Origin: Agelas oroides
Taxonomy: Eukaryota > Porifera > Demospongiae > Agelasida > Agelasidae
DNA length: 64,000 bases
Direction of reading: 5' to 3'
Assembly (NCBI GenBank): GCA_949130485.1
Contig: OX422197.1
Coordinates: forward strand, 1,154,603 to 1,218,602
Part shown: one piece after another, positions 12,201 to 62,899 of the stretch
Layout of the letters: each line of letters begins with the position of its first letter
How positions within the stretch are numbered: position 1 is the first letter of the stretch
Translations under genes and position numbers: made by a program
Notes under the pieces: model-generated
The model's input: only the letters and a program-made list of their open reading frames with translations
Told to the model about the DNA's origin: nothing
The model's database searches: none

Positions 12201-14685
12201 AACAAAGTGGCCAGGCTTTGCGGAAAGACCGTCAAATTTGCTCAGAGAAGATGTCAAATATGCTGAAATCAGATACCCTAGGGGCCAACCAATAATCCCC
12301 GCTGCTCCAGCCACAACTAGAGAACCAAGTAGAGTGAAGTATGCTGAAATTCGTTTCGCAAGACCACCAGTTTCTGTAAATGCCAGTCCCCATCCCTTCA
12401 GCCTGTACGACGTTATTCCCGCCACTTATGAAGATACCAACCCCTACCAGTCCAGAGCTGAGCTACTTGCTCAGAAACTGCAACTGGAAGTGACCAATTC
12501 TACCCCAAAACCCCAACACTCAGATCCCTACCAAACACGTGGAGAGCTACACCGCGCTGAGTCCTCACCCAATGCCTTTGCTAATGTCAGTAACTCACAA
12601 CACCACTTTCCAAGGCAGTATTCTAGCCCAGCTGTTGCCAGAAGACCCTTGAGTATGCTAACTACACAGGCTGATGCTGCTGGATCGGAAATGCCTCGTA
12701 GGAACAGAGAGTTTTATGTTAGTGGAAAAAGCGTTGTCAGCAGCCGCTCAAGCCCCGGTCTTACACAGGCATCTAAAGTCCCCAAAGGTCTCCCTGGGTA
12801 TGAAGCCCTGGTGAAGCTCCACTCCTTACTGGGGGCACAAAAGACAGAGGAGCTAGCGTACCACCTGACGAGAGCAGATGCAGTGTGCTTCCTGCTAGCG
12901 CCGAGAGTCGGGGAGGACGATGGAGTTTGGAAGAACAGGTACATTGGTGCTGAGTGTGTGTGTGTGTGTATGTGTGTGTTTGTGTGTGCGTGTGCATGTG
13001 TGTGTGTGTATGTGCATGCACTTTGCTGTTATGGGAGAGGAGAGAGAGGGGGTCAATCATTTGAATGCATGATTTAATTATGTAGGCAATTGCCATTAAA
13101 GAGCCATGAATTCTCAATAGTATTGTATTTCAGTTCAAAGTCTAATCAGTGAACCTACAACGCTAGTTATGACAAATGTCCAGTTACAGTCTGTTTACAA
13201 TTGAGATCAGTGTTGGAGATTCTAGGAAATCCTTCTCGCAGCATCTTATAGAAACCTAATGTAATACCATCCTGAGTAGTAAAATTCGATACCCCATTTC
13301 AAAGTACTTTGCATGTCGAAAGTACATGACAGTTGGAGTAATTTTACCTTCTTCTTCTTTGCTTACCCAGGGTAAAGAACGTGACATCTTCAGGGGTCTT
13401 TGTTGGCCTACAAACCCTCGCTGATACCGACGGTGAAAAACTGTGGAAGAAACTCTATTTCAGGTGGGTTATTCTTTACCTGTACATGCATGGATCTAAC
13501 GCCTAACCTGAATTTTAGCTAACCTTTCTGTTTTTCTCCCTTCCCTCCCTCCTCTGTCCTTCCTATGTTCCTTTCTACTCTTTCCCTCCCCCCTCCTCCC
13601 TACCTCCTCCCCCTCCTCCCCCCCTCCTCCCTACCTCCTCCCCTTCCCTCCCCCCTCCTCCCCCCCTCCTCCCCCCCTCCTCCCCCCCTCCTCCCCCCCT
13701 CCTCCCCCCCTCCTCCCCCCCTCCTCCCCCCCTCCTCCCCCCCTCCTCCCCCTCCTTAAACAGACACCTCAGTATCTCCCAGACGGTAGCCCTGTGCATC
13801 GTAAGCGCGGGTGATGCTCTAGATAGAGCAAGAATGTTGCAGAGGTTCATTGAGCTAGCCTCCCTGCTACAGAGCGGTAACTATGGCAACCTCTTCTCCT
13901 TCATGGCTGTCATGCAGGGAATACATGTCCCACAGGTCAGTACTGTTTTCCACCCTTGGGAAGAATTGATCACCAAGACACACTCATTTCAGGAAGATAG
14001 ATTTACATGAAGTAGGGGACTTGTTCTAATGTCCTGGTTAGTTGTCCTTACTCGAGGGATGTCCTTTGAGGGAAGTCTCACTAGTATAAAAGAGTCATAT
14101 GGAACTCACCTTTTGTGGAATTGCTACAGTAGAAAGTTTTAATATATCCACCCCAAGTTTACGCAAAATCACCCCCCTTCCTCCTCTCTCCTTTTCCAGG
14201 TCATGGCCATGTCAGAGATTTGGGAGCTGCTCCAGCTCCACTACCCCAAAACTGCCAGCACACACAAGGAGCTTCAGGGTACCATTTCCAATCTCAAAGA
14301 AGGTGTGTCTATGTTTGCTACTGAGCAGCTTGCAATACCGGCAATCCAGCATCTCAAAACAGTCTTTCATTATGAGGAGCAGCCCCTACCTGGCCAACCG
14401 CCCGAGGATTACAGCCCCCTGGGTGAATTCTCAAGCCTCTCGTCCGGTCTTGACAGCATCCACACCATCATTTCTAACTGCTCCCAATTCTGCTACAACG
14501 TGCGAAAAAGATTACATCATCTTCAGTACGATGCGACCCTGATGGACTTTTTCATGCAGGATTATCCACGAACATACTTGCAGCTAATGGGCGTATGTAC
14601 CGATAGTCCACAGGAGAGGCGGAGGAGATTTGGCGTGCTATTGGACGCTTTAGTAGACCGTCTCGAATCTTTTGAATGCTTATAG
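4088..14685 (+). CDS. SAM-SH2-Cdc25-homology adaptor, NSP family (BCAR3/SH2D3-like)
   Basis: Eight exons join in phase: 4088-4186, 8861-8981, 9237-9300, 10414-10468, 10975-12938, 13371-13463, 13764-13935 and 14200-14685, giving 1017 residues. An N-terminal SAM domain (about 12-75) is split over two exons (WLAEL, then LKKLGI). The SH2 domain (about 265-360) has WFYGKI, the phosphotyrosine-binding arginine in FLVRE, and a post-SH2 VNPICRGG stretch like NSP proteins. A Ser/Pro/Tyr-rich linker carries two YAEIR and two PYQ(S/T)R motifs. The C-terminal part (about 716-1010) matches the Cdc25/RasGEF-like domain with which BCAR3-type adaptors bind p130Cas, although in that family it lacks exchange activity. 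The likely role is cytosolic tyrosine-kinase/adhesion signalling. The start was chosen as the first ATG, three bases into the SAM exon. A SAM domain is not part of the vertebrate family as I know it. Confidence 0.85.
4187..8860 (+). other. Long first intron of the NSP-like gene
   Basis: This is a 4.7-kb intron from GTGAGT to TCTCACAG. No exon, RNA gene or transposase was recognised. It is AT-rich with scattered short open frames of no recognisable family. A sequence near 7975-8045 (TTTTGATGATTGGATAAGT-like through the TTCACAGCTTCTAGGTGC segment) recurs at 8140-8195 as a short duplication. Confidence 0.5.
9171..9235 (+). repeat. (CA)n microsatellite abutting a splice acceptor
   Basis: The CA dinucleotide run ends directly at the acceptor of the exon at 9237. 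Confidence 0.85.
9301..10413 (+). other. Intron of the NSP-like gene with a dispersed repeat
   Basis: No exon is seen. About 9963-10035 holds a copy of a dispersed repeat (GGGAGACTTTGTATAACATC, then a T-rich stretch, then GATGTGGTTCATTAATTG) also found near 20010, 31430-31555, 51740, 61890 and 63440-63880. The last 70 bp are a pyrimidine tract leading into the acceptor. Confidence 0.5.
13565..13758 (+). repeat. CTCCCCCC-type minisatellite upstream of a splice acceptor
   Basis: About 190 bp of almost pure pyrimidine are built from CCTCCCCC units on the sense strand. The tract ends a few bases before the acceptor of the exon at 13764. Confidence 0.85.
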
Positions 14686-23731: not shown

Positions 23732-26700
23732 CTATTGTTTTGCAACCTGACACACCATCACTTTGGCGTCGGACCAAACTGTCGTCAGAATCAGATCACG
23801 GAATGGATTTCTGAAGTATGCATTACTGATCACTGGAACCTCTCTTGAAAAGTTGAGTGCCACGTACATGCATGTTCCTTTCATTTCCGGAAAATGGAGC
23901 TCCGAAGCAACAGAAAAGTTTGGAACGTTGTAAATCTTCACCGTATTGTTCTTCATCCCTACTGCTAGAAACATGCTACCTAGATGAGGGTGACTGTGGA
24001 ACGATGTCGAACTGACGTCGCCTCCTAGGTTTGAAATGGTCTTAATACACTTCGGAGGTCTACTAAACTGCCAGAGACTGACCGAATGTGTGACAGCGCT
24101 GTTAGGTTCTTGGTGGAGAGAAACATTCAACTGTTCTTCAGTTACCGAGAGGTTTGACATTTCCGACATGATACTGTTGAGGGTGGCTTGACCTGTGGGC
24201 TGCGTATGTGTCCCCTGTGGGGCAGACGTGACTAACCCTTCCGGTGCCACGGGCACTGTGGGATGGGGATCATGTGACACCATGTGACTATGAGTTGGAT
24301 CGTCCTCCCGGCCTGAACCAACCGTGAGAAACTGGCTGTTGTCCATGACGTGGATGTTGGTGAGCGAGGTGTTGTGAGGAACGATGGAGCTATCAACTAC
24401 AGGCTGCTGGCTTTGCATACTCCAGAGAACCACCAGGCCGTTCTGACTTCCAGAGAGGAGAAAACCTCCAAGGATCTACAGAGGGATAAAAATTACTTGC
24501 GAGTAATCGTTGTTTGTCCATGCTGTCACCAACTGCAGCATGCATGTGAAGGAAGAGCAGGAAAAGCCTGATACATTATCGTGAGATTGATAAACTACCA
24601 AAAGGTAAGACTAGCCTTGTCCCCAGGCCCCTGTCCAGCTTCTCTTTACAAGAGCTGCATTTTAAAAAGGTACCGAGTAACAAACTGTGGGTTGGAGACT
24701 CTGCCAGTTGTAGCCATTTAAGTATAGCGTGTATATGTATTTAAAATTTTCATGCGTTTCATTTTTGCCGCTCTGTGCACCGGCAAAATATTTTAACGGC
24801 GAAAAATTTCCTGATCTACGGTATCTTTGTCCATGTTGATTCCCACTCAGGGATCAGGCTTGACTCACTTTCATCATGTAAATCTATTTGCAAACTTTCA
24901 GTGACCAATTTGAATATGACATTTCGTGCATGCATATGAACTCGTCCCGCGTGTCCCCCTGTCACACACATAAGGGAGTGACCAGCCCTCGTGTCCAGAT
25001 CTCATGTTTCCTTACCTGGAGTGCGATCACAGGATGAGGGGCGTGGTTCTGAGCGCTGAAGAGCAGGGAGAATGTCTTCTGCGGTGGCTGCGAAATGTAC
25101 CACGAGACTACTCCATTCTTGTTGCCAGCCACCACCACCTGTGCTGCATTGATGGAGGTCATGAAGTGGATCAGTGCTGTCACTGGAGAGGCAACCTGAG
25201 AGAAGAGAGGGAGGGAGGAGGGAGAAGAGGATGGGGAGAGGAAGGGAAGAGGTAGAGGAGGGAAGGGAGGAGGGGGAGAGAAGGGAGGAGAGGATGAGGG
25301 AAGGGAGGAGAGGAAGAGGGAATGGAGGAGGGGGAGAGAAGGGAGGAGAGGAAGAGGGAAGGGAGGAGGGGGAGAGAAGGGAGGAGAGGAAGAGAGGAGG
25401 GGGAGAGAAGGGAGGAGAGGAAGAGAGGAAGGGAGGAGGGGGAGAGAAGGGAGGAGAGGATGAGGGAAGGGAGGAGAGGAAGAGGAGAAGAGATGACAGA
25501 GGGAAGAGGAAAGGAAGGTTGGGTGGAGGGAGGAGTAAGAGAGGGTGGGGTGGCGGAGAGGGAGAGAGAAGAGAGGTTCCTACTAGAGCACGCTAACAAT
25601 TCAACGTTGTACAAGAATGGGTGCAACTCAAACACTGCCTAGCAAGGTAGTCTGTGCACAATCACAAAACAAACAGGAAACTTGAAACAGAAACTAGTCA
25701 AGGGGATCAATTGCCTCACCTCTGCCGAGTGCACCAGTGTCACAATCCCATGTATCCCCTTCTTGAGGTCCCACACGTAGATGTTTCCCGCCTCAGTCCC
25801 TATCACCAATAGTGATGGCTGTTGCCTTGAGCAATGCAGACAGGACACATTGAACCTAAAATTGGTTCTCTCTATAAGGACAGAGCTGTCTTGGTAGGGC
25901 CGATTCCCTCCGAAGAGGATCTTGTAGTCTCGAACAACTGGACCAAAGCTGATGTAGAAATGATCTGCTCGGGCTGCTAGCTGCGAGATGTCGGCCACCG
26001 GTAATCCCTCTTGGTCATCGTGCGTGATGGCTACTTCCGAGAGAAGACTGAACTTTAGCACTGGGTCGGGCAGCACAGGAAGAGCAGTAGGAAATGGCAC
26101 CGTGGGTAAGAGAGGCACGTTCCCTGGCATTCGTCCACCAGACATTGGTGGTCTTAGGAACAAGAGTGGCGGCTGATTTGGAAAGTTAGATGCAAAGGTG
26201 CCCCTTGGTCTCATGACAGTTGGTAGGATGGGAGGTCGTGCGCCCGGGATGGACACCATGGGTGTGCCCAGGGGAGATTGTGGTGGTGATGCGACGTACT
26301 GAGATAGTTCGAGGGATGGGTTGTTCACCCAAACATTTGGTGGAGCCTGGATGTGGAGAGGCGGAGACGACGAAACCCTTGCTTGAGTGATGGGTCTGAA
26401 GGCGGATGGTGATTCTCTCGGTTCAGGGTGGGCAAACCAGCACTTCTCTCCGTATGGACACTGCCCGGCGATGTAGTGTCGACACAAAATCTCCTTGCGT
26501 GAAGAGATCAGCTGCTGTGAGGCAAGGGATAAGGGCGGTGGGTTCGGTAGGAGTGGTTCCGATTCCAGCGGTACCAAAGACCCTTGCAGAGATGTGCCGA
26601 GAAGTGACGCACTTGTTGAAGGTGTGATGTGGTTTTGGTAGACTGATGTGGACACTCCGACCGTTTGTTGCTCATATAACCCACTGCTCCCTCTGGTGGG

Positions 26701-27384
26701 CAACTGGGGTTGTGTGTGTGTCAGGTTGACAGTGGGATCTTGCGAATGAGACATGGCCACAGCTGTGGACGGGAACGCTGCTATACTGGGCAGCACTTCT
26801 GAAGTCGTGGGATTCTCCAGAACAGGAGCCGAAGAGAAACTAGGAGACGACGGCTGCGTCAACTCTTGACTCGGTGAGCCAGACGAAGGGACCATGCCGG
26901 TATTTTGCTGGATAAAAACAAGTCCCTGCTGCTGGTGCTGTGTGTTCTGCCCTGGGGGTAAAACGGAAGGTACAGGGAAGAGAATACCTGGGTGGCTAGG
27001 TACTGTCTGCATGGTGTTGCTATTGGGTGAGAGCTGACCAGGATTTGTGAGCACTCCCAAGCCGTAGAACGCATTTGTAGGACTATTGGGGGTTACGAAG
27101 GGAGGAGGGCGAACAAACTGGCCTGGAACAAAGGGGGGTTGTAGCATCCCAGTGCTACTTACTCTCGGAGAAGGGTATTTTCGTGGCTTTCCGCCACTAT
27201 CGCTACGAGGTCGGACTGTGCCGTTTGAGGAGCTGCTGCCACTTGAGGAGTTTGAATAGCGTCTTGGGTGGGGTAGTTTGGGACTACGAGCGATGAGAGT
27301 CTTTAGGACGTGCTCTCCGTAGTTCTGTACCCATCTTATCAGCCCATGTTGCAACTCTGATAAATTCAAGTCTGAATTTGACAG
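23732..27384 (-). CDS. CCCH zinc finger and WD40-type protein, 5' end not found
   Basis: Three minus-strand exons join in phase 0: 27384-25720, 25195-25016 and 24475-23732 (863 codons including stop). The first begins after a CAATAG acceptor and has no ATG, so an upstream start exon is missing. A Ser/Pro/Gln-rich region is followed by a C-X7-C-X5-C-X3-H finger, CRHYIAGQCPYGEKCWFAH (about 26430-26490). Next is a propeller-like part with VIGTEAGNIYVWDLKKG, VVVAGNKNGVVSWYI, LLSGSQNGLVVLWSM and FLAVGMKNNTVKIYNV, each a GxxxGxVxxW-type WD blade. CCCH fingers usually bind RNA, so an RNA-linked role is an inference. I do not recognise a named orthologue. Large introns hold purine tracts that are pyrimidine in the sense direction. 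Confidence 0.75.
24476..25015 (-). other. Intron of the CCCH/WD gene
   Basis: No exon is seen. Around 24605-24650 is a one-sided fragment of the TAGCCT foldback family (TAGCCTTGTCCCCAGG). Confidence 0.5.
25197..25562 (-). repeat. Purine tract (sense-strand polypyrimidine) at a splice acceptor
   Basis: GAGGGAGGAGG-type repeats of about 360 bp lie immediately upstream, in gene direction, of the exon starting at 25195. Confidence 0.85.
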
Positions 27385-33365: not shown

Positions 33366-42085
<8,720 letters not shown>

Positions 42086-45201: not shown

Positions 45202-45905
45202 CTATCAGCACACAATGATAATTACTTAACCATCATTCCCAGGCTCCCACACGGCCTGGGAACGAGGTTATCTACGCGTACAACTCATGCTCGGATTTGG
45301 GAATGGGACTAGAGCCTTGCGTTAATGAGCCGCACAGCCTCATGACAGAAGCACTTCCAACTGACCGTCTTCAAGTGAGAAAGCACTCTTTATGTCAGGG
45401 AGGGAAGTATAATAGGGCGTAGTATAGCGTGCCACAACTTTGCCATATCTTTCTGAAGTGACAGAAATTATAGCGCACGTAGTATGTGTGTGTTGTTTGG
45501 CTATGATTGATACTGTAGCTACTAGTTATGGTATCTATGATGCATACACAAATTTTTAGATCACTATCCCAGTGATTAAGACACTCTGGGGTCAGTTGCT
45601 GGGGTTGTTCTCCTATAATAGTAATTAGGGGGACATATGGATAATTAATTTTCCTAGGGGGTCAGCAATTACCGGTAGCTGTCCAGGGGGTGTATAGGAG
45701 TAAAATGAATTTTTGTCCTGGGGGGGAAATAGAAAGTATCCTCTTCCGAGGGGGGTGTATGCTTAATAAATGGAATAGCACATTTCTATCGCAGCAGCTG
45801 TTAACTTGTTGTGGTCTTCTATATCTGTAGGCAACCTCATGAACTGGTGAGTGCACCAAACTGGCAAAACTTGGAGAACACAAGACGTGCGATTATTGAA
45901 TACAA

Positions 45906-47513
45906 ATGGCGACAGCTGCCTTTCCACAATCTCAAGAGCACCACAGCAAAGAGCTACAGTGTGCACTTTGTATTGAGAGCTTCCAAGATGCCCGGATACT
46001 GCCTTGCTTCCACACATTCTGTGCCAGCTGTTTACAGCGTGCATGCCTGCAGCATAACACAAGGAACACACAAACAGTCTACTGTCCCATTTGCATGGAT
46101 GAGAGTGAGCTGCCTTCAAATGGAATCCAGGGACTTCCAAGAAACATGTACGTTCAGAACCTCCAAGACCTTCAGCGAGCACCTTCTCCACTATTGCCAA
46201 GGTGTGATCTGTGCACTGATAACGAGACTGCTGTCTGCTATTGTGAGATTTGTGGCTGCCATTTGTGTGAATTTTGTGAGCAAGCCCATCAACGACAGTG
46301 GAAAACATCTGAACATCCCCTGATCCCAGTGCAGGGGAAAACAACTCTCATGCATCGCTGTACCTCAAATGTTTCCGTTCATCCCAAAGTCTGTGAGTCC
46401 CACCCAAACGAGCACCTGAGGCTCTTTTGTAATTCCTGTAACATACCAATATGCCAGGAGTGTACCGTAGAGGAACATCATGACCACAAATTTCTCCCCC
46501 TTGAGGATGTAAACATGCAGTACTCCGAGATCATTGAAAGTCTCCTTGGACAAACCCCACCTCTAATCGCTGCCCTGAATGAGTCAATGAAAAGCATTGA
46601 GTTTATGCTGAGTAGTATTCAAGATCGTACGGAAATGGTTGCCCATGAGATCTGTGACTCCATCGATGCTCGAATGAGGGCTCTACAGGAGCACAAACGC
46701 TCCCTTCTGAATCAGCTGGATGCCATAAAACAGTGCAAGGAGAACATTTTAGAGCGTCAGCTGGAGGAAGTGAAACGAATTCTTGATGATTTGAATGTCT
46801 ACAGCAACTTGGCTGCCAAGGCACTTGAACAAGGCAACCCTTCCGCTGCCTTTTCATCTGAAGAAGTGCCTGTGGCTGCTCACCTTGAAGAGTTATTGAG
46901 CTTCAATCATGACTTTTACCCTGAAGAGGATGACTATATTCAGTTCAGTCCGAACCTCCCAGCTGGACAGAGCAGAGGATTTGAGATGTTTGGAATCTTG
47001 AACTCTCGAGGACCATCAGCAGCACACTCCGTTGTCGAGGGAGAAGGTCTCTTTGAGGCCAGACAGCGAAAGATGACTGGTTTTCTTGTGACCATTCATG
47101 ATCGTTTTGGAGAGAGACGGCTCAGCGGTGGTGACAAAGTGGAGGCTCTTTTGCACAGCCGGAGTGGGACGATGGTGAATACAACAGTCACTGACAATGG
47201 GGATGGGACGTATCAAGTCCTATATACCCCTGAATCCATTGGGGAACACCGTCTGTCAGTGCTCATAGATGGCAAACATGTGAGAGCAAGTCCGTTTGTC
47301 GTAAATGTTCGTCCAAAGCGAAAAAAGCACCGTGGCATCTTCCACTGCTGCACGTTTTGCTCTTCGGAAGGCAAGAAGCATGTGAGATGCGGGTGTGGGG
47401 GGGTGATGCCAGGTGGGTACAGTGGGTGTGGCCATGGTCACCCTGGTCACCCTGGCTGCCATCATTGGTCCTGTTGTGGCAGCACCGTTGAAAAGTCGGA
47501 ATGTCTGCTGTAA
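45906..47513 (+). CDS. TRIM45: TRIM45-like RING/B-box/filamin-repeat protein
   Basis: The coding sequence is a single exon of 535 residues. A RING finger (about 18-64: CALC, CFHTFCASC, CPIC) is followed by a first B-box (about 99-135) and a second B-box (about 163-205: CESH, CNSCNIPICQEC, HHDH). Then come a coiled coil (about 215-310) and a filamin-type Ig domain (about 370-465: GSPFVVNV-like ending ASPFVVNV). A Cys/His/Gly-rich tail has FHCCTFCSS and GCGHGHPGHPGCHHW before HWSCCGSTVEKSEC. This order and the unusual tail are those of TRIM45. By family it would be a RING E3 ubiquitin ligase; substrates cannot be told. The ATG sits in a good context (ACAAATGGC). Spliced 5' UTR exons are possible. 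Confidence 0.92.
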   Translation: MATAAFPQSQEHHSKELQCALCIESFQDARILPCFHTFCASCLQRACLQHNTRNTQTVYCPICMDESELPSNGIQGLPRNMYVQNLQDLQRAPSPLLPRCDLCTDNETAVCYCEICGCHLCEFCEQAHQRQWKTSEHPLIPVQGKTTLMHRCTSNVSVHPKVCESHPNEHLRLFCNSCNIPICQECTVEEHHDHKFLPLEDVNMQYSEIIESLLGQTPPLIAALNESMKSIEFMLSSIQDRTEMVAHEICDSIDARMRALQEHKRSLLNQLDAIKQCKENILERQLEEVKRILDDLNVYSNLAAKALEQGNPSAAFSSEEVPVAAHLEELLSFNHDFYPEEDDYIQFSPNLPAGQSRGFEMFGILNSRGPSAAHSVVEGEGLFEARQRKMTGFLVTIHDRFGERRLSGGDKVEALLHSRSGTMVNTTVTDNGDGTYQVLYTPESIGEHRLSVLIDGKHVRASPFVVNVRPKRKKHRGIFHCCTFCSSEGKKHVRCGCGGVMPGGYSGCGHGHPGHPGCHHWSCCGSTVEKSECLL

Positions 47514-47834: not shown

Positions 47835-50800
47835 ATGTCGCAAGAAGGAGACGGAGACGATCTTAACAGATCGCAGAGCAAAACAGAGTCTGCTCGTGAT
47901 CAGATTTTCAACCAGTTTTTCGAGGTAACCGATTTCCAAGAGATCCAAAAGAGCTTCCGAACTCTTTGCGATGCAATCGAAGCCAGCGGATGCGAGGGCT
48001 TGGCTCTTTACGCATCGCTGAAGAGGGAGCTAACATCATGGAAGTGCTGTCAACTGTGGAAGTTGTTAGACGCGCGAGCGTCGCTTCCCGAGTACGCAGA
48101 TCAGAAAGCCTGTGAGAAAATGAGAGTACTAATCGTGGGAGGGGGGCCAGTGGGACTGCGTGCAGCCATTGAAGCCGCCCTGCTCGGTGCTAGGGTGGAC
48201 CTGGTGGAGAAGAGAACTAGCTTCTCCCGAAACAACTCGCTCCATTTATGGCCATTTCTCATCACGGACCTGCGCGGTCTGGGAGCCAAGAAGTTCTACG
48301 GGAAATTCTGCGCCGGAGCAATCGACCATATCTGTAAGTGCTGCATCACTGCACGCATGCTTATGAATCTACCTAGGCGTTGCAAGCTGGATGGCAGGCT
48401 GTACCGTGGTGCAGCCATCAAGCCATATATAGTCAGAGAATTAGAGTGATACCCGGTAGTAAACACTGTGCAAAATGTGCCCAGATTCATCATATTGTGA
48501 ATATCTTCATCTTGACAAGAATGCTTTGAATTGCTAGCATGTCTCGAAATGTGACATTTGCTGAGTTGCGTATGTTCCCCTTTTGTCTGTCAATGTTTCA
48601 CATTTTCGTTCATCTTCACACAAGTGATGGCTGGCCAAGGTTTGTAGTGCGTACAAATTATGGAGAGATCACTTTTGCAGATTCTGGAACAGCAATTTGC
48701 TATTACATTGGACAAACTTTCAAACATGAACATTTGGCCAACGTAATGGAAAAGTTCTGTTCTGGAATCCATGAAAGAAACCACACATTGCATTTCAACA
48801 ATCTGTATACATTGTGTTACAGTCTGTGAGGTACTGACTGTTGAGGGATTCGGATTTACAAAATTTATTGTTCCTCCTCGACCACTTTGTCAATTTACAT
48901 GCTAGCAGACTTATTATCATCTCCTTCCTCTCAGTGAGGTCACTTGCTTCTAGTGAATGCTAAATAGCTCGCTAGTGAATCCACAGCGCTACAAAGTACT
49001 AATCAACTAGCAAATGCTGTATCTCATTCCAGCTGGCTGTGGCAGTACGTGGGTTGCTAGGGGTAACATCCAACCAGTTACATTCCCCAGACAGGACAGT
49101 ATTCGCCCTTTGGGCTCATGCTGGTCCGTCTGGGGAATGTAACTATTATATGCAATCTTTAAAAGTGAGTGTGTGATGGAAGAGGGTTCATATGAAGCAA
49201 GCAGTGATGAGAAATAGTTAATCTCACAGCCTAAGGGCAGTAGCATGTTCACAGTTTTCACATGCGCTTGTCTGTCTCTCCGTCCCTGTCTAACAGGTAT
49301 CAAGATTCTCCAGAGTATTCTACTTAAAGTGTGCCTCCTGCTCGGCGTGAAAGTCTACTCGGGAGTGAAATTCACAGGGCTTGTGGAGCCCAAGAATGCA
49401 AACGGCGGGTGGACAGCAACTGTCACTCCCGCTTCATCTCCAGTCTCCTCTTGTACCTTTGACATCATTCTTGGTGCTGACGGGAAACAGAACAGCCTTC
49501 CAGGGTTTCGTTCAAAGGAGTTCCGTGCAAAACTAGCACTTGCAATCACCGTCAATTTTGTGAATCACAACACAAAACAAGAAGCGGCTGTTCCAGAGAT
49601 TGGTGGGGTTTCGTACCATTTTAACCAGCGGTTCTTTGACACTCTCTCGGCGAAGCATCAGATTGACCTGGAGAACATTGTATACTACAAGGATGAGACT
49701 CACTACTTTGTGATGACGGCCAAAAAACAGAGCCTGTTGAAGAAGCGGGTGCTCAAAGATGTAAGTGTAAAACATAGTTCACATCTCTCCTCTTTGCCCA
49801 GATAACAGGTCAGAAATATCTCCCCTGCTGAAGAAAGGGAAGGAGGGGGGGGGGAGTAGGGTGCTGTGGTAGCAATGTGTAAAACAACCAACCCCAGGAA
49901 ACTATTACGGGATTAGGAGAAATAATGAACTGTTTTCTGTGTCAACACTGATTCGTAAACCAATCCTGATACTGTACATTACTATATCTACTAAAGGTAT
50001 ATGCAAATACCCAGTGGTAATGACAGCCCCCCACACCGTACTGCAGAGGAGCGAGGCAGTCACCTATGACAGTGAACACTGCAGCAAGCATGAGAGAATT
50101 ATGAATGACTAATCGCCATGGTTACCACTTGCTTTGATGTAGACCTCAGTTAGCACATGACGTTTCCTCAGAGGAGATTAGAAGCTAGTGTACACCACTT
50201 AACTCACTGAAGAAACAGTTTTGCTGTTTTAACCATTGTGGTCATCCTGGTTGAGAGAAGCTGAGGAGACAGCGGTTATGAGAGGCTTTGAGATTGGTAG
50301 TAGAGGCTAGCTGTGTAAGACAAATGGAAAGACTTGGTTTCTTACCCTTTTCCTCATCCAGAATGGGGCAAAGACAACGAGGAAACTGGATGTATTGCAC
50401 AATTAGTCACTATAGTATGGAACTAAAATACTCATTGTGGGTAGCCATTAGCCTCATTCTCAGGTCCCGCCCAGCTTTCCATCGCTTTCAGCACGGAAAA
50501 GTGGGAGAGGGCCTGGTATCTTTTCTCACATGAGTGACATCAGGATGGAAAGGATGGTAGAAAGGGTTTAATTGTGCGTTGGCAGACTAGGCCCAGAATA
50601 GCAAAAAGAGCCAAGGTACGAGGTAACTTACCTCACGTATCTAGCAATCGGGGGCCGACTGTCGTACACACCAAGCGTTGAGCGTGTAGTTGGTTGAAAA
50701 TACGTGAAACGCAGCCTGTAGTTCTGCAAATTTCCGATTATGTCATGCTCACGTGAGAAAAGATACCAGGCTCTCCCCGCTTTTCCGTACTGAAAGCGAC

Positions 50801-51880
50801 AGAAAGCTGGGCGGGGCCTAGGAATGAGGCTAGGTAGCCATCTGTGGTCTAAACAACTTTTACAAGCGTACTAGCCATAAATCCCTGGCACTGTGCTATA
50901 ACTATAACATCTATATCAGACAGGTCCCCTGGGGAAGAGCCATCTGTGATTTAAACAACTATTACAGTGCACAAGAGCGCATAAGAACGGGCGGCTAGAG
51001 TAAGAGCGTGTAACTCCAATAGAAGCCTGTAGTCCGGGCAAAATTATTGAACCGTACTAAAAATAGAACATCCGGTCACGTGTGCGCTTAGCAACAATGC
51101 ATAAGGGCTTATGTCAACGTAGCGTGCGCAGTGCGTGTTACTATTTTTAGTACTGGCGGTAAATTCCGCCCGGTTTCGAATTTTACGTAGTTACACGCTC
51201 TTACTCTAGCCGCCTGTTCTTATGCGCTCTTGAGTGCACTAGCTTCTTGTTTTGTTACCTTGGTAACCTCTCTTGAAATATCAAGACATTTCAACGTTTG
51301 TGTCCATCGTTTCAATTTCAACAGAATTTCAATCAGTCGGAGCAGCTTCTCTCTCCCAGCAATGTTGATCGCAAGGCTCTGGAGCGATATGCCATTGAGG
51401 CAGCTACTTTCTCCACCGAAGGGGAACTTGGAGACCTGGAGTTTGAGAGGAATCACAAAGGAGAGAATGACGTTGCTTTGTTTGACTTCACATCACTGTT
51501 TGCTGCGGAGAATGCCTCCAGGATTGTGGAGAGGAAAGGGAAGAGGATTCTGATGTGTCTAGCAGGAGACAGCCTGCTGGAGGTGAGCCCTCTTCCCCTC
51601 CCCCTCTTCTACCCCCACCTCGTCCCCCCACCTCCTTCCCTCCCCCCTCCTCTACCCACACATGCATACACAATGTCACACATGTCCTAAAGTTGTTTTT
51701 TTTTGCTAAAATTTCAGTTCTGTTCAGATAGCATTAATGCATAGCATCTAGGCCTGCCTTCTTATTGATTTTTCATACATAACCATGCCTGCACACGCAT
51801 GTGTATGCACACACACACACACACACACTCGCACTCACACACGCACATGCACACACACACACATGCACACACACACACAT

Positions 51881-51919
<39 letters not shown>

Positions 51920-54900
51920 ATAGTTACATTCCCTAGATGGAGCAGCATGAGCCCGAAGGGCGAATGCTGTTCTGTCTGGGGAATGTAACTTATTTGTTAG
52001 ATGTTACCCCTAGCAACCCACTGCCACACCCATAATCACCTCCACCCATTCTACTTTGTGTTGTTCAAGTACAAAGTTTTGGTTGCTAAGCAACATCTAA
52101 CAAACACACACACACACACACACAAAGGGGCTACTTGATCAGTTTGGCATGACTCTTTCTAGTATCAATGTTTCACTTCACTTATGAAACCATGGACGCC
52201 ACTCAAACCTGATTGTTACTCTCTTATTCACAGCCCTTCTGGCCATTGGGAACTGGCTGTGCGAGGGGCTTCCTCAGTGCATTTGATGCAGCCTGGATGA
52301 TGAAACGATTTGCAGGTGGGGCAGACCCCATAGACCTCCTGGAGGAGCGAGAAGCAATCTCGTACCTCCTTCCCCAGACCACCGTTGATAACCTCAACAA
52401 GAACTATGGAGCGTACACAATTGATCCAAAGACCCGCTACACCGCACTGAACGATGTCTCACCACTGGGTGATGTGACCCATCTGTACGACACAGATGAC
52501 CAAACAGCCATTAGAAGCCGAGCGTCTACTCGTGACAAGAAGGCTGCACAAGGTACTAAGCTTTCAGAACTCCTGGGAAAAATCGTTGTGTGCAGTGATG
52601 TCATGTAGTGTCAGCTAGATCAAGGTAGACACATGAAGGGGAAGGGGTGGCTGGCCATGTAATGTCAGCTAGATCGAGGTAGACGCATGAAGTTGTAAGT
52701 GCATGTAAGCTTGATCACCTACCATTGCCTTACCTTAATCGGCTACTCGCTCAGGCTGTCCCAGGACAATGCAGCATCTCCCTAGTACATACCAAGTTGT
52801 AAGTGCATGTAAGCTTGTTCCCAGGCCTCCAGCAGCTGCTTTGTCTGTTGAGTCTAGTGTGTGTGTGAAATCATGTCCGTACAGAAGTTTTTGCCCAGTT
52901 GGGCACCACAAGTGAAGCACGAGCCAGCAGCTACAGCAACAAAAGACCACAGTATCAAAAGTACAAATTTCATCCTTTTGATGTGGTGAGAATAATGACC
53001 TTCTTCTATTGACCTTTGTGATGCTCTATTCATGTAGCTGCCAGGCAACCAGACAACAAGGCCACAACTCAATCAAGTGGGCTCAAGCGTTCATGGTCAA
53101 CTGAGCACTTACCTCCAAGAGCGTCTCCCAGGTCATCAGATAGTCCCAGAACTCGGAAGAAGAAAGAGGGTCAAGCTGTGAAAGCCTCTCCCTCAGCCTC
53201 ACCTAGGGCTTCTCCGCAGCTGCGAAAAGGTGGTAAGTTCTCTCCAAGTACAAAGGTCAAGCGGGCTGAAGTGAGTGCTTCTCCAAAAAGGGCTTCCTCA
53301 TCCAAGCCAGGCCGAAAGGAAGACAGAAAGACATCAGACAAGAAAGAACTTACATCCTCCCAGCAATCCAAAACTGAGCCCAAAAGCAAAGAAGCAGAAG
53401 CTGAACAACGGCTGAAAGTCGCGGATATTATTCAGCAGCTGGAGCCACCTTCATCCGGCGCTACGGCAGCTTCCCCCAAGTCCACAGGAAAGGGTAAAAG
53501 TGGTAAGGAAAGTGTGAAACAGAAACCAGCCGGTAAGGGGGACAAAAAGAAAGGTGAGGAAAAGGTGAAAGTGAAACCAGATAAGGTCAGCAAGAAGGAG
53601 AAGCAGAAGGAGAAGAAGGAGAAGGAGAAGGAAGCAAAGGGAAGAGATTCTCCAGCAACAAAGAAACATCGTTTTTTTCCTTTCCTGTTTAAGAAGAAAA
53701 GTTATGATGTTGCTGGAGCCGAGGCTGCTGGGTCACCGAAGCACAAGAAGAAATCCAAGAAGGAAGACAAGCACAAAACTCAACCTCTACAAGAAGAGGA
53801 AGCAAAGCCACCGACAATTCAGAGTATAAAGGAGCAGTTGAAGCAGCGAGGGGTGGCCACAGATTGCCCGGACGCAGGACCTGATGTACCTCCAACCGTG
53901 GAACCAGAGGAGAAGCAGGACGAGGAGGAAGGGATGTCTGAGGTTTCGCTTCCCTCTCCAGATGTGCCGTCACCTCAGAAACCACTTGAACAAAGTCTAC
54001 AGGAAGGGGAAGAATTGGTGGATGGTGAGGCTGAGCCACAGATGATAGTAGGAAGCATCAGGGAGGAGTTGCCAGCATTGCCACGAGTTGAGAAGGAGGA
54101 GGAGGGGGAGGAGGGGGAGGAGGGGGAGGAAAAACCGAGAGCTACTGTGGAGGAGACCGTCAGGCGACTGCAACCCTTGGTTGAAGCTTCCAGTGTATGT
54201 TCATATTAGTGTACTTTGACCTTTGCTCTCTCAAAAACGAATGTTTTGATTTGAATCAATTTTTACTAATGTTTCTTATGCGTATTTCGTATAGACAATA
54301 CATTGTGTACGTAGCAGCAAAACTGTTTAGTACAGGTGAACGTACCGATTACCTCAAATTTTGTATGTATCCTGCAGGAATTGTCTTGGAAGTGCTCAAA
54401 AGACAAGAGGTGTGATGTCATTACCTGTTGCTATGTAATGCTAGTACATGTGTGTAACGTAATTACTAGTATTGGTATGCGAACTATTACTAAGATTACA
54501 TTGTTTACTTGTTCGTAGGTCAAAGGAGGCCGATTTGGCAGAAATTTATAGAAGAGAAACCAAGGTAGGTGGAGATGGACAATAGTATAGTATACTGGGG
54601 AGTGTGCAGTAGTATACTGGGAGTGTGCAGTAGTGCACTGGGAGTGTACAGTAGTATACTGGGACTGGGAGTGTGCAGCAGCGTACTGGGAGTGTGCAGT
54701 AGTATACTGGGAGTGTGCAGTAGTGTACTGGGAGTGTGCAGTAGTGTACTGGGAGTGTGCAGTAGTGCACTGGGAGTGTACAGTAGTATACTGGGACTGG
54801 GAGTGTGCAGCAGCGTACTGGGAGTGTGCAGTAGTATACTGGGAGTGTGCAGTAGTGTACTGGGAGTGTGCAGTAGTGTACTGGGAGTGTGCAGTAGTAT

Positions 54901-56497
54901 ACTGGGACTGGGAGTGTGCAGCAGCGTACTGGGAGTGTGCAGTAGTATACTGGGAGTGTGCAGTAGCGTACTGGGAGTGTGCAGTAGTGCACTGGGAGTG
55001 TACAGTAGTATACTGGGACTGGGAGTGTGCAGCAGCGTACTGGGAGTGTGCAGTAGTATACTGGGAGTGTGCAGTAGTGTACTGGGAGTGTGCAGTAGTG
55101 TACTGGGAGTGTGCAGTAGTGCACTGGGAGTGTACAGTAGTATACTGGGACTGGGAGTGTGCAGTAGCGTACTGGGAGTGTGCAGTAGCGTACTGGGAGT
55201 GTGCAGTAGCGTACTGGGAGTGTGCAGTAGCGTACTGGGAGTGTGCAGTAGCGTACTGGGAGTGTGCAGTAGCGTACTGGGAGTGTGCAGTAGCGTACTG
55301 GGAGTGTGCAGTAGCGTACTGGGAGTGTGCAGTAGCGTACTGGGAGTGTGCAGCAGCGTACTGGGAGTGTGCAGTAGCGTACTGGGAGTGTGCAGTAGCG
55401 TACTGGGAGTGTGCAGTAGTATACTGGGAGTGTGCAGTAGTATACTGGGAGTGTGCAGTAGCGTACTGGGAGTGTGCAGTAGTATACTGGGAGTGTGCAG
55501 TAGCGTACTGGGAGTGAGCAGTAGTATACTGGGAGTGTGCAGCAGCGTACTGGGAGTGTGCAGTAGTATACTGGAGTTAGCCTCGTACCTGTCTGCAGGA
55601 AGAGACGTCTCACCCCCTCTGGTTGGCGAGGGTGATGCAGGGACTGAACAAGTCTCTGGAGAGACTAAAGAAACAGAATGACGACATAATGGTCTCCAAA
55701 ACTGCTCTTGAGATTCTCAACACCATTTTCAGGTATAGTACCCTCTCTTCTCTCCCAGCCACCCCTCTCCCCCAACCATCTCCTCCCAACCCAAAAAGTT
55801 ACAGTTACATATGTGTGCTTACCTCAACAGTTAGCCTCATTCCCAGTCTCTTGTGCTCCATTGGTTGTAGTACATAGTATGGGGCATGGGAGACTGGGAA
55901 TGAGGCTACTCAACAATCAAAATGGACACTGTTTTCATCCCTCAAATTGAGAGAAACAATGCATATGACACTGAGTACCTAGAGTAAGTTCTGCTTTCAG
56001 GACCTTTCCAATGACGAGGGTGGACCAGGAGGGTCTATGATGGGAGCAAGGGTTGGGGAGGACCCCAACCAAAACTTGTTTTTTCTTTGGGAGGAGAGGG
56101 GAAGTAACTATCTTTAAAGAAAAGTGAAACTACCTAGCAACTTGATCAGAAGGGCTGTATCGGTTCAACCTTTCCTCAAATATCTTTCAAAGAGGTTGGA
56201 GATAATTCCCACATTACATCATGTTGTTACTATAGCAACGTGCAGCTGTATCCGGATGATGACATCTATCGTCGTGTGAGAATCTCGAGCAGACGGTTTC
56301 ATGACAAGGTGTGGCAGTACAGTGATGCTCAGCAGTTCCTGGCGAGAGCAGGATGGATGGAGGTGAGTGAGGCTCAACGTCTAGAAGCTATTGAGTATCG
56401 GCAGTCATTTCAGGATTATGTCCTACCAAAGAACTTCATCTTGCCACATGTCCTGTAACTTGATACATACTTTCTTTGCTTCACACACACACACACA

Positions 56498-56565
<68 letters not shown>

Positions 56566-59500
56566 AGATTGACGACTTCATAGTCCTTCCAATTGGCAAG
56601 ACAGTGGACATTCCAAAACATATTCTGGACAAACACTTGGAGTAAGCATAATCCTTTACATCAGCCTCATTCCCAGGCCTCTAGTATTGCATTCCAGAGG
56701 CCTGGGAATGAGGTCACCTTTATGTCACATGCATATGGCCAACCATCATGTATAAGAATTCTGACTCCGCCCACTTGTATTCCTTCATCTCTCTCCCAGC
56801 ATAGTGAACCAGATGTTGTGGTCAATGCGACTGGAGCTACCAGACTCACCAGACGTCCTGAAGAGAATAAAATTGAACAAGATTCGAGATAGGTCCATCT
56901 CACTTGGTCGGAGGGAGTCCTATGCCACAAGGCGCGTGTCTCCTCCTCTTCTTTCCTTTCCACTCTCCTCCCATTCTTGTATCTTTCCCCTCCCTCCCCT
57001 GCCTTCACCTCCCTTCCCTTCCCTCCCTCCCCTCCCTCTACTCCCCTATAGACGTCAGAGTCAATCTCTCCCCTCCCTTCCCTATTCAACCATCTCCCTG
57101 CTCTTTTTCTGGCCCCTTCCTCCCTCCCTCCCCTTCCCTCTTCCCCCTTTCCTCCTATTTTGCTTTCCCTTTCCTTTATCTATTCCTCTTTCATCCCTTT
57201 CCCCTTCCCCCCTCTTTTCACTCTATTGTACCTCCTTCCTCCCCTCATCCTTCACTATCACAATAACAAAAGGTGTCCTCTTCTTCTAGACTTGTTTATG
57301 AGAGTTTGGAACGTGTGGAAAAGGACCAGTTGGCGATGGCAGCAGCCAAGATGAGGAAGCCAACACCCACTGGTAGTCTCGCTCTGGGCTCTCCCCCAGG
57401 CCTGCAACCTCTTATAGAAGGGAAAGAGGAGGGGGAGGAGAAGGAAAAAGGGGGAGAGAGCACCTCAGACCCTTTTGATGTGAGTGAGAAGGGCCCTATA
57501 TACTCTCTTAGTCTTGTTCCCCTGACCCTCAGCGAGACCCCCGACCTTCAGCGAGACCCCCAGTACAGTTGCAGTTGTATGTACCATACTGGGGGTCTGG
57601 GGACCATATGGGGGTCTGGGGACCATACTGGGGGTCTGGGGACCATATGGGGGTCTGGGGACCAGACTGGGGGTCTGGGGACCATACTGGGGACCATGGG
57701 GGTCTGGGGACCATACTGGGGGTCTGGGGACCATACTGGTACCCTCTTACCATCTGAGCCCTGTATTTTGAGCATTAGACAGGCACCGTCTCTCCAAGAA
57801 AGTTTGAGTTATTGGGTACATCAGTGGGTATGCTATGCAACAACATGGGAAGATGCAGTAAACTTGTCTGCCTATTTCTGGTCCATTCCTCACCCTCTCA
57901 CATCATTATAATATAGGCTGCTGGTGTGCGTGAGGACAGAATGGAAGAGCTTCAAACGATAAAGGCTGCATCTGCGGCGAGAAACATCTGGCTGAGAAGA
58001 GACAGGAAGGGTAAGAAGTTGGCAAGATATCTCCAGACATCACACTAGTCTTGTCCCCAGACCCCACCCTTTCGTGAGGAGAAACAGTCTGGTGAACCTC
58101 TCACAGGAAGCATGTGCAGGCTGGGCATGAGACTAGGTCTAATGTACGATGACTGCCACTAGTTTCGTCCCCAGACCCCACCCTCTCACAGGAGGCACAT
58201 GCGGGCTGGGCATGAGACTTGGTCTAATGTACGATGACTGCCACTAGTTTCGTCCCCAGACCCCACCCTCTCACAGGAGGCGCGTGCGGGCTGGGCATGA
58301 GACTAACATCACACCTGCCAGCCTAAGGTTTGCAGTTGATGGGTTTCAGTGTGTGTGGCAAGAATTGTGGCAACAGTAACAACAGAAATGCATAGCAGAG
58401 TAATTACTTATTTTGTTTATGGCTTCAGTTCATTGTCAGTGAAATTTAGCCGTTATGTTTGTGCAAAAGAAAATTGCTGTATCAGCAATCGTACTTCGAC
58501 ATAGGTGCCTGGGCTGTTACTACACGAATCGTACGAATGTGTAGGAACTTGAGCGAAAAGAGGGTGTGAGCGCTCGCTCTGTGGTGGGCGCTCGCCCTGT
58601 GGTGGGCGATCGCTCTGTGGTGGGCGCTTGCCCTGTGGTGGGTACTCACCCTGTGGTGGGCGCTTGCTCTGTAGTGGGCGCTCGGCCTGTGGTGGGCACT
58701 TGCTCTGTGGCGGGCGCTCGCTCTGTGGTGGGCGCTCGGCCTGTGGTGGGCGCTCGCCCTGTGGTGGGCGCTCGCCCTGTGGTGGGCGCTCGCTCTGTGG
58801 TGGGCGCTTGATACGTACACTTTTTTGTTCTTGCAGGCTCTGAAGAGGTCAGGCAGGAGAGGGAATACAAGCTGATCCTGGAGACAGAACTTTATGACCT
58901 TGGCCCCAGACAGGTAGAGCAACATTGTTGGTCATGTTCCGCAGGAAACTTCCGGAGCTTGTTGGTATGGTGATGTTAAGTATTGCAAGTGTTATGACCC
59001 AGAGTTCACGGTTTAGCACGTACAGTGAACACTGTTATTGACCAATCACAAACAATAGAGTCACCTTCAACATTGACTTGAGTTGATCGTCTATAACTTA
59101 TGCAAGAACTTAAGGGCAGAAGGAATGGGGGGAGCTAAATCTTGATAGGGGTTGTATATATACCAAATGGTACTATTTATGGATGGTGCTAATGTTTGTG
59201 CGTGTTGGAGAGTGCATTCCTGATATGTCACATACACCATTCCCCTCAGGTCAATCCCCTGTCCACTCCCTTGTCCAAGCTACCTGAGGAGGAGGAAAAA
59301 GAGCAACATGCCCACGTCCCTTCCCCTTCCTTCTCCCCTTCCTCGTCTCCATCACAACAGCATACGGAACCAGAGGTTACCCCAGGAGAAGGGAAGGAGG
59401 GTTGTGTTGAACCAAACTCTCAGCAAAGTCTCTCCCAGCAAGAGATACTAGAGGCAGCTGTTGTGGCCAGTGAGAGTGCTCGTCAAGTGTGGAAACAGCT

Positions 59501-60276
59501 TGATGGTAAGAGTAGAGAATGGCTACCATGATTGATTGACTTGTTACATCTTTCTCATACCCATCCTCGCCATGGCTCTCACAGGTTCTGTCACCAACGA
59601 TGGTAACTGCATAGGAGTGACAACCCCTCCCAGAAAAGAACCCACTGAAGAGAGGGAGAAAGAACCCACTGAAGAGAGGGAGGCCATAGCTAGCAACACC
59701 AGTATTGGTGGGGAACAGCCTCCACGCACCAACTCTCACTCCTCTAGCCCACACCCAGCCTCACCCCTGCCACTGCCACCAGCAGATGTGCAGGTACGTT
59801 GACACATGATGTACGCATGCACGCATGCACGCACGCACGCACACACGCACGCACGCACGCATGCACGCACGCACGCATGATGTACGCATGCACGCACGCA
59901 CACACGCACGCACGCACGTACGCACGTATGCATGCACGCATGCACACACATGCACACACACACACACGCACACACGCACACACACACACACGCACACGCA
60001 CATGCACACACACGCACACGCACACACACACACACACAAGCAGTCAAACACAAGCACAACACTATATATACAATGAATTCTTATCCCCTCTCCCCGACAC
60101 ACCCCCACACACCCACACACATACTCTCTCTTCCACAAACAATTTCATAGTCAGCCACAGAGTCCTCAATCAAAAGCGGCCGGCTGGAGGATGAGAAGGT
60201 CACAATTGAAGCAGCTGCGCAAGCAAGGCAGAAATGGATGGACGGTAACTTGAACCCACAAGACTCACCAACCTAA
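47835..60276 (+). CDS. MICAL-type FAD monooxygenase fused to a PUB domain
   Basis: Seventeen exons, all phase-compatible: 47835-48333, 49297-49760, 51325-51582, 52234-52552, 53038-54194, 54378-54409, 54519-54564, 55599-55732, 56236-56362, 56568-56641, 56800-56892 (end ambiguous), 57290-57479, 57917-58010, 58837-58913, 59250-59505, 59585-59793 and 60151-60276, about 1384 residues. Residues 1-510 are a full MICAL monooxygenase: dinucleotide fold [75 protein letters not shown]. MICALs oxidise methionines of F-actin. The CH and LIM domains that normally follow are absent. Residues about 515-900 are Lys/Glu/Ser-rich. Residues about 930-1060 form a PUB domain ([34 protein letters not shown]), a fold that binds the p97/VCP tail. 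The C-terminus has three Ala-rich repeats ending in ARxxW. Confidence 0.85.
48334..49296 (+). other. Intron 1 of the MICAL-PUB gene
   Basis: No exon is seen. At 49041-49143 it holds a copy of the repeat that contains ACATTCCCCAGACAG and CTGTCTGGGGAATGTA-type inverted ends, related to that at 51920-52100. Confidence 0.5.
50449..50832. mobile_element. Foldback element, TAGCCT family, 9-bp TSD
   Basis: Ends TAGCCTCATTCTCAGG and CCTAGGAATGAGGCTA. Flanked by the perfect 9-bp repeat GGTAGCCAT (50440-50448, 50833-50841). Inner arms share ATACCAGGC and GAAAGC segments. It lies in MICAL-PUB intron 2. Confidence 0.88.
50972..51232. mobile_element. Foldback element of a second family
   Basis: Inverted ends of about 45 bp begin CAAGAGCGCATAAGAACGGG. 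The short repeat AGTGCA on both sides (50966-50971, 51233-51238) may be a 6-bp target duplication. The right end lies about 90 bp before a MICAL-PUB exon. Confidence 0.78.
51805..51920 (+). repeat. (CA)n microsatellite in MICAL-PUB intron 3
   Basis: CA run with GCAT interruptions. It is followed by a dispersed repeat with GTTGCTAAGCAAC at 52082-52094. Confidence 0.85.
54575..55575 (+). repeat. 21-bp minisatellite, about 45 copies, in a MICAL-PUB intron
   Basis: Unit GGGAGTGTGCAGTAGTATACT with few variants, and a 27-bp variant (ACTGGGACTGGGAGTG) recurring at regular distances. It begins just after the donor at 54565. It is open in all frames on both strands, which is expected for a 21-bp unit without stops. 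Confidence 0.92.
55832..55908. mobile_element. Minimal foldback element, TAGCCT family, 9-bp TSD
   Basis: Only 77 bp long: TAGCCTCATTCCCAGTCTC and its reverse complement around a short loop. Flanks CTCAACAGT (55823-55831) and CTCAACAAT (55909-55917) are a 9-bp duplication with one mismatch. Confidence 0.85.
56481..56564 (+). repeat. (CA)n microsatellite ending at a splice acceptor
   Basis: The CA run merges into the acceptor ACACCAG of the second PUB exon at 56568. Confidence 0.9.
56662..56716. mobile_element. 55-bp foldback element, TAGCCT family
   Basis: CAGCCTCATTCCCAGGCCTCT and its reverse complement form nearly the entire element. Flanks CCTTTACAT (56653-56661) and CCTTTATGT (56717-56725) look like a decayed 9-bp duplication. 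Confidence 0.65.
56940..57285 (+). repeat. Polypyrimidine tract before a MICAL-PUB acceptor
   Basis: C/T-rich sequence of about 340 bp on the sense strand leads into the exon at 57290. Confidence 0.8.
57580..57745 (+). repeat. Approx. 20-bp minisatellite (GGGGTCTGGGGACCATACTG)
   Basis: Eight to nine units in a MICAL-PUB intron. Each unit holds GGTCTGGGGACC, an imperfect palindrome. Confidence 0.88.
58020..58310. repeat. Three tandem TAGTCTC-family fragments
   Basis: AGTCTTGTCCCCAGACCCCA and two AGTTTCGTCCCCAGACCCCA copies, each followed by GGGCATGAGACT, indicate tandem duplication of a small element related to element B. Confidence 0.65.
58567..58812 (+). repeat. 18-bp minisatellite before a MICAL-PUB acceptor
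   Basis: About fourteen units of GCTCGCTCTGTGGTGGGC. The array ends 25 bp before the acceptor of the exon at 58837. Confidence 0.9.
59815..60045 (+). repeat. (ACGC)n and (CA)n microsatellite
   Basis: GCATGCACGCACGCACGC runs followed by CA repeats fill the last MICAL-PUB intron, starting about 20 bp after the donor at 59794. Confidence 0.88.

Positions 60277-60530: not shown

Positions 60531-62899
<2,369 letters not shown>

Follow-up and report, generated by a model that had tools for sequence, protein, structure and literature searches.

A sponge gene model joining a MICAL flavoprotein domain to a PUB domain

The locus and its gene model

MICAL proteins are enzymes that disassemble actin filaments by oxidation, and the PUB domain is a module hitherto associated with the machinery by which cells dispose of proteins. 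A gene model in the demosponge Agelas oroides very probably joins a MICAL flavoprotein monooxygenase (FMO) domain, devoid of CH and LIM domains, to a PUB domain; we refer to it as the MICAL-PUB gene. It lies in a 64,000-nt stretch of contig OX422197.1 (assembly GCA_949130485.1, positions 1,154,603 to 1,218,602 of the forward strand; "the window", from whose first base coordinates are counted below). The single model (47835-60276, forward strand) has 17 exons encoding 1399 aa, with its ATG at 47835 and the last base of the stop codon at 60276. The published architecture of MICALs is FMO-CH-LIM followed by a Rab-binding region at the C-terminus (PMC3305314, PMC9982024).

All 16 introns of the model are of the GT-AG type, and the frame is open through to the stop. 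Exon 4 ends at 52552 (followed by gtacta) and exon 5 starts at 53038 (preceded by atgtag), giving a phase 1 join; the 54194/54378 join is in phase 0. The exon coordinates, the phase 1 join and the unbroken frame into the PUB domain, as given in an initial annotation of the window, all hold in the rebuilt model, which is laid out as follows.

47835-48333 (+), exon 1: start codon, FMO N-terminus, GxGxxG (VGGGPVG, residue 101)
49297-49760 (+), exon 2: FMO
51325-51582 (+), exon 3: FMO
52234-52552 (+), exon 4: end of FMO, including Trp410 (equivalent to the flavin-stacking W405 of MICAL3)
52885-52986 (+), candidate cassette exon of 102 nt, outside the model: keeps the frame; no Pfam match
53038-54194 (+), exon 5: Lys/Ser/Glu-rich linker, residues 514-899 (386 aa)
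54378-54409 (+), exon 6
54519-54564 (+), exon 7
55599-55732 (+), exon 8: pre-PUB stretch, then N-terminal part of PUB
56236-56362 (+), exon 9: PUB core
56568-56641 (+), exon 10: C-terminal part of PUB
56800-56937 (+), exon 11: conserved post-PUB stretch; alternative end at 56931
57290-57479 (+), exon 12
57917-58010 (+), exon 13: first KAASAARN.W motif
58837-58913 (+), exon 14
59250-59505 (+), exon 15: SARQVW motif, no counterpart found in relatives P0001 and P0122
59585-59793 (+), exon 16: slight support from homologues
60151-60276 (+), exon 17: VIM-like stretch at residue 1374, stop codon

The donor of exon 11 (gtctcc) is the weakest splice site of the model; the exon may end at 56931, with a GC donor, rather than at 56937, since the two extra residues are absent from both P0001 and P0122. 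The in-frame segment at 52885-52986 is a possible extra exon of the gene. Intron 7 consists mostly of a 21-bp minisatellite (45 copies, 54588-55574), and a 77-nt element occurs in opposite orientations in introns 1 and 3 (49076-49152 and 51914-51990; 91% complementary); each copy is itself an inverted repeat, and its appearance is that of a small hairpin element of the dispersed type.

Domains of the predicted protein

Exons 1-4 encode a complete MICAL flavoprotein domain, as originally annotated. The Pfam family PF25413 (Rossman_Mical) matches residues 246-375 at 188.1 bits (cut-off 27), and residues 9-500 align to human MICAL3 (6ici) at 563 bits; four further MICAL sequences of solved structures also match, all five at E<=3.1e-150. 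The domain is 63% identical to that of a Geodia barretti protein (P0002) over 503 columns. Among the flavin-contact residues named for MICAL3 (PMC6949599), the GxGxxG motif is kept at residue 101, and Tyr303, Asp403 and Trp410 correspond to MICAL3 Tyr298, Asp398 and Trp405. Altered CH-docking residues in the FMO domain (MICAL3 K207, T208, E213 and E215) were set aside as evidence, because mouse MICAL1 keeps only E215 of five (PMC6949599), and Geodia keeps E215.

No CH, LIM or bMERB domain is found among Pfam matches of the whole model at E<=1. Nor were CH or LIM exons found in the window when seven relatives were compared with all of its open reading frames (ORFs) of at least 20 aa at E<0.01; the queries were P0001, P0002 and the CH-bearing MICALs P0004, P0006, P0011, P0013 and P0061, three of these five having LIM and three bMERB by Pfam. 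Matches at this threshold were confined to the four FMO exons, plus seven PUB-side ORFs for query P0001. Three weaker matches of these queries lie at 10076 (E 0.28), 15188 (E 0.075) and 59193 (E 0.87). A CH exon was sought specifically between exons 4 and 5, where the initial annotation had seen none, and neither the Pfam scan nor the CH-bearing queries revealed one.

The PUB domain (PF09409) is recognized in the whole model at residues 958-1025 (43.7 bits, E 2.7e-11, cut-off 34.3), which bears out its earlier assignment from the sequence alone; a 126-aa piece scores 48.7 bits. In a six-frame search of the genome (259 Mb in 141 contigs), run exon by exon so that its counts are lower bounds, three matches reach E<=0.001, and exon 9 is among them at 35.1 bits, again above cut-off. 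The relatives P0001, P0122 and P0123 carry the same domain (44.2, 45.3 and 37.1 bits). By profile, the nearest solved PUB domain is that of UBXN6 (21.7 bits, E 0.0016), followed by PNGase (17.7 bits, E 0.029); single-sequence comparison puts the two level (PNGase E 0.026, UBXN6 E 0.027).

The pocket by which the PUB domains of UBXD1 and PNGase bind the p97 tail (the PIM) consists of YxxN(x)9Y plus K/RxxN; in UBXD1 the Y181A substitution raises the Kd for p97 from 14 to 111 uM and N201A weakens binding five-fold, and in SPATA2, where the first pocket Tyr is Val, the p97-tail peptide is not bound (PMC6995525). The model, P0001 and P0122 all read IxxN(x)9Y and RxxS, keeping three of the five positions and replacing the first Tyr by Ile and the Asn that binds the carboxylate by Ser; in P0123, whose sequence is interrupted by introns, the readable part agrees. 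Another PUB exon of the same genome (L002, which by resemblance only would be UBXN6) served as a control and keeps both YxxN(x)9Y and RxxN. The Ile and Ser replacements lead us to expect a different or weaker ligand; MICAL-PUB may bind p97, but this cannot be taken for granted, and the step from PUB to p97 in the initial annotation is not well supported. A further PUB exon of the genome (L001; C23:5231025-5231216, reverse strand) has Trp for the second pocket Tyr (YVIN..W..KTNN) and a weak SPATA2_PUB-like score, under cut-off.

The linker encoded by exon 5 is basic and of low complexity. Met is absent from its first 299 residues, all those ahead of residue 813, and it shares the islands VADI..L.P, KKSYDV and VE.T.R.L.PL with the Geodia linker, to which it aligns with a score of 194 (shuffles 139+/-13); a 70-residue segment whose start lies eight residues ahead of the exon 4/5 join gives 57 (shuffles 35+/-5.5). 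Each comparison used 500 shuffles, all of which scored lower. In the tail, which is helical and conserved, the motif AA..[AV]R[NQ].W occurs twice in the model, P0001 and P0122, with a third, looser copy in the model only; copies of AA..AR[NQ].W are located at model residues 1163, 1276 and 1379, and the one in exon 15 is perhaps the result of exon duplication. Near the C-terminus, [RK]x5AAx2R is present in all three proteins, in its strict form Rx5AAx2R only in P0122 (RITLEAAAQVR). The full consensus of the VCP-interacting motif (VIM), Rx2h3AAx2Rh (PMC5389986), is found in none of them; the relaxed form arises in 176, 135 and 50 of 2000 shuffles for the model, P0001 and P0122, respectively, and occurs in one of 127 other compared proteins, mostly MICALs. 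This VIM-like motif is the remaining, weak link to p97, a lead and not a finding. A DPF motif in the tail, considered as an adaptor-binding signal, was dropped because P0122 lacks it.

Relatives, canonical paralogue and neighbouring genes

The best FMO match (64%) is P0002, a 1031-aa protein of the demosponge Geodia barretti named mical1, which comprises FMO and linker, has no CH or LIM, and ends at the equivalent of the exon 5 end. P0001 provides the other half: it starts inside the linker, with its first Met at residue 30, and continues through PUB and tail. It aligns to residues 883-1199 in one gapped alignment across nine intron positions, and to 1356-1390 across one more, as a processed transcript would. 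The two proteins come from different sources, but their linkers share 89% identity across 467 aa, so that the whole succession of FMO, linker, PUB and tail is covered by the pair. P0122 (459 aa) comprises the end of the linker, PUB and tail and shares 73% identity with P0001 across 312 aa.

A search with the FMO domain gave 3265 matches; none of the 120 listed carries PF09409, and four of them (P0002, P0003, P0009 and P0048) lack PF00307. A search with the PUB region among proteins 0.55-1.75 times the length of the model returned P0001 as the sole match among 254 candidates. A third, with a two-row alignment of 324 aa, gave eight matches among 7528 at E<=1: P0122 and P0123 carry PUB above cut-off, P0124 is the window's own sequence, and five are short fragments. 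Bacterial and archaeal contigs, scanned for stray sponge DNA, gave 102 pattern matches and no relative by tblastn. For MICAL-PUB proteins in other genomes, which the initial annotation had proposed to look for, overlapping relatives were found (P0001, P0122 and Geodia P0002), and in these searches no single sequence outside the model holds both FMO and PUB.

The same genome contains a second FMO on another contig (C6), where two exons together encode CH (42.6 and 28.8 bits), LIM scores 31.8 bits, and there is a weak match, with an internal stop, to the C-terminal part of an acorn-worm MICAL (P0011; E 0.001). With a canonical FMO-CH-LIM MICAL present there, the MICAL-PUB gene is to be read as an additional paralogue beside it. 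The initial description of PUB standing "in place of" CH and LIM applies to the architecture of this gene, but needs that qualifier for the genome. Introns near IDHI(S/C) and between LLE and PFWP are apparently common to the two genes. In a midpoint-rooted tree of 17 FMO domains, the window gene forms a clade with Geodia P0002 and with P0003 (support 100/99; 96/94 for the grouping of the window gene with Geodia P0002), with the canonical paralogue outside. The latter adjoins the clade on a long branch (support 91/94, not starred), a rough position because its sequence was pieced together from matches.

Just upstream of the MICAL-PUB gene, an uninterrupted TRIM-like frame (45900-47513, +) carries RING, B-box and filamin repeat (PF13445 27.8, PF00643 43.5 and PF00630 61.6 bits). 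Just past the gene are a predicted tRNA-Val(CAC) (60700-60773, -) and, as convergent downstream neighbour, a deoxyhypusine synthase exon (61372-61614, -; PF01916, 69.5 bits). Elsewhere the window contains exons of the kinesin-associated protein KAP (33369-34022 and 35481-37160, -; PF05804, 32.8 and 84.6 bits), a reading frame with an SH2 domain (10951-13074, +) and another with a CCCH zinc finger (25642-27384, -).

Possible role and alternative explanations

On the evidence as a whole we consider it reasonably likely that the gene represents a sponge-lineage MICAL paralogue in which a catalytic FMO domain is coupled to a PUB adaptor with a SPATA2-like ligand mode. The FMO domain would use NADPH to oxidize methionines of F-actin or of some other target; the linker, PUB and tail would stand in for the CH, LIM and Rab-binding half, bringing the enzyme to a partner, and might also hold it inactive. 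As a tentative suggestion from the pocket residues, the PUB domain would most likely dock a ubiquitin-system protein by a non-canonical, SPATA2-like surface rather than grip the p97 tail in the known mode.

NGLY1 (PNGase), a glycanase with an N-terminal PUB domain, is likewise an enzyme joined to PUB, and the two PUB domains align by sequence. The NGLY1 pocket, in contrast, is canonical (PMC6995525). MICAL1-3 share the full-length FMO domain, GxGxxG and the Trp, Tyr and Asp FAD contacts, whereas in MICAL-PUB a long basic linker, PUB and a different tail occur where CH, LIM and bMERB would be expected. The p97 cofactor UBXD1 (UBXN6), composed of VIM, PUB and UBX, has the nearest solved PUB domain by profile and a VIM that the C-terminal stretch weakly resembles; MICAL-PUB differs in having no UBX among its Pfam matches, in its replaced pocket Tyr and Asn, and in the attached oxidase. 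SPATA2 likewise has an aliphatic residue for the first pocket Tyr (Val, against Ile here; PMC6995525), but the PUB domain of MICAL-PUB belongs to PF09409, not to PF21388 (SPATA2_PUB-like).

Several observations weigh against the favoured reading. The likeness to SPATA2 amounts to one pocket position, and Pfam assigns PF09409, not PF21388. Outside the model, FMO and PUB were found together in no sequence of the FMO and PUB-region searches. The AlphaFold model of P0122 with P0001 was poor (mean pLDDT 48.1, pTM 0.22) and gave no structural support. F-actin raises the efficiency of MICAL3 only when CH is present (PMC6949599); a review states that the redox domain alone suffices (PMC9982024), so the sources conflict on the need for CH. 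Two of the five FAD contacts are altered, MICAL3 Cys97 corresponding to Val106 and Val126 to Ser135. Together with the missing accessory domains, these two changes would suit a catalytically dead or degenerate MICAL serving only as a scaffold, which we regard as very unlikely given the retained flavin-stacking Trp and two other contacts, the open frame and the 63% FMO identity to Geodia.

The model was predicted from genome sequence alone; P0002 runs no further than the exon 5 equivalent and P0001 begins within the linker; the FMO-linker join of P0002, a deposited protein, may itself be predicted; and P0003 (522 aa), of the same FMO clade, ends soon after FMO with no linker, PUB or CH, and may be either a shorter form or a faulty gene prediction. 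These points would fit a pair of adjacent genes, one a short MICAL lacking CH and the other a PUB gene with an unrecognized start exon. Such an extra start exon would be needed because exon 5 is Met-free for 299 residues and the P0001 linker precedes its first Met; moreover, the reading frame of exon 4 runs on into exon 5, a homologue of the post-FMO linker of Geodia, and we judge two genes highly improbable.

A different view of the ligand would make the protein a redox cofactor of p97, its PUB domain on the p97 C-terminal tail and its VIM-like helix on the N-domain, as in the bipartite PUB and VIM binder UBXD1 (PMC5389986), so that a methionine oxidase is brought to unfolded clients. The nearest solved PUB domains (UBXN6 and PNGase), the three retained pocket positions and the C-terminal [RK]x5AAx2R in all three proteins point this way; the Ile and Ser in the pocket of every copy, the missing full VIM consensus, the frequency of the relaxed motif in shuffles and the recurrence elsewhere in the tail of a similar stretch lacking VIM spacing argue against it, and we think it unlikely. 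Its more specific form, a sponge-specific cofactor that grips p97 by a modified PUB domain and a VIM helix and oxidizes methionines in actin or in clients as they emerge, is quite unlikely; were it true, it would connect cytoskeletal disassembly with protein extraction.

Neither a MICAL-PUB (or PUG) fusion nor a MICAL1-p97 link is described in the literature searched, judged by titles and the beginnings of abstracts and with most subscription papers outside its range, in keeping with the initial annotation, which knew of no MICAL with PUB. A survey of early-branching animals retrieved its proteins by the LIM domain (PMC3305314) and so would probably have missed a LIM-less MICAL. If the favoured reading of a MICAL paralogue with a PUB adaptor is correct, a MICAL whose second half has been exchanged for a ubiquitin-system adaptor would be a rewired oxidase module, raising the question of other substrates. 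It would also be a natural test of the requirement for CH in activity on F-actin, and would enlarge the set of PUB proteins by one enzyme, whose PUB pocket points to a different ligand.

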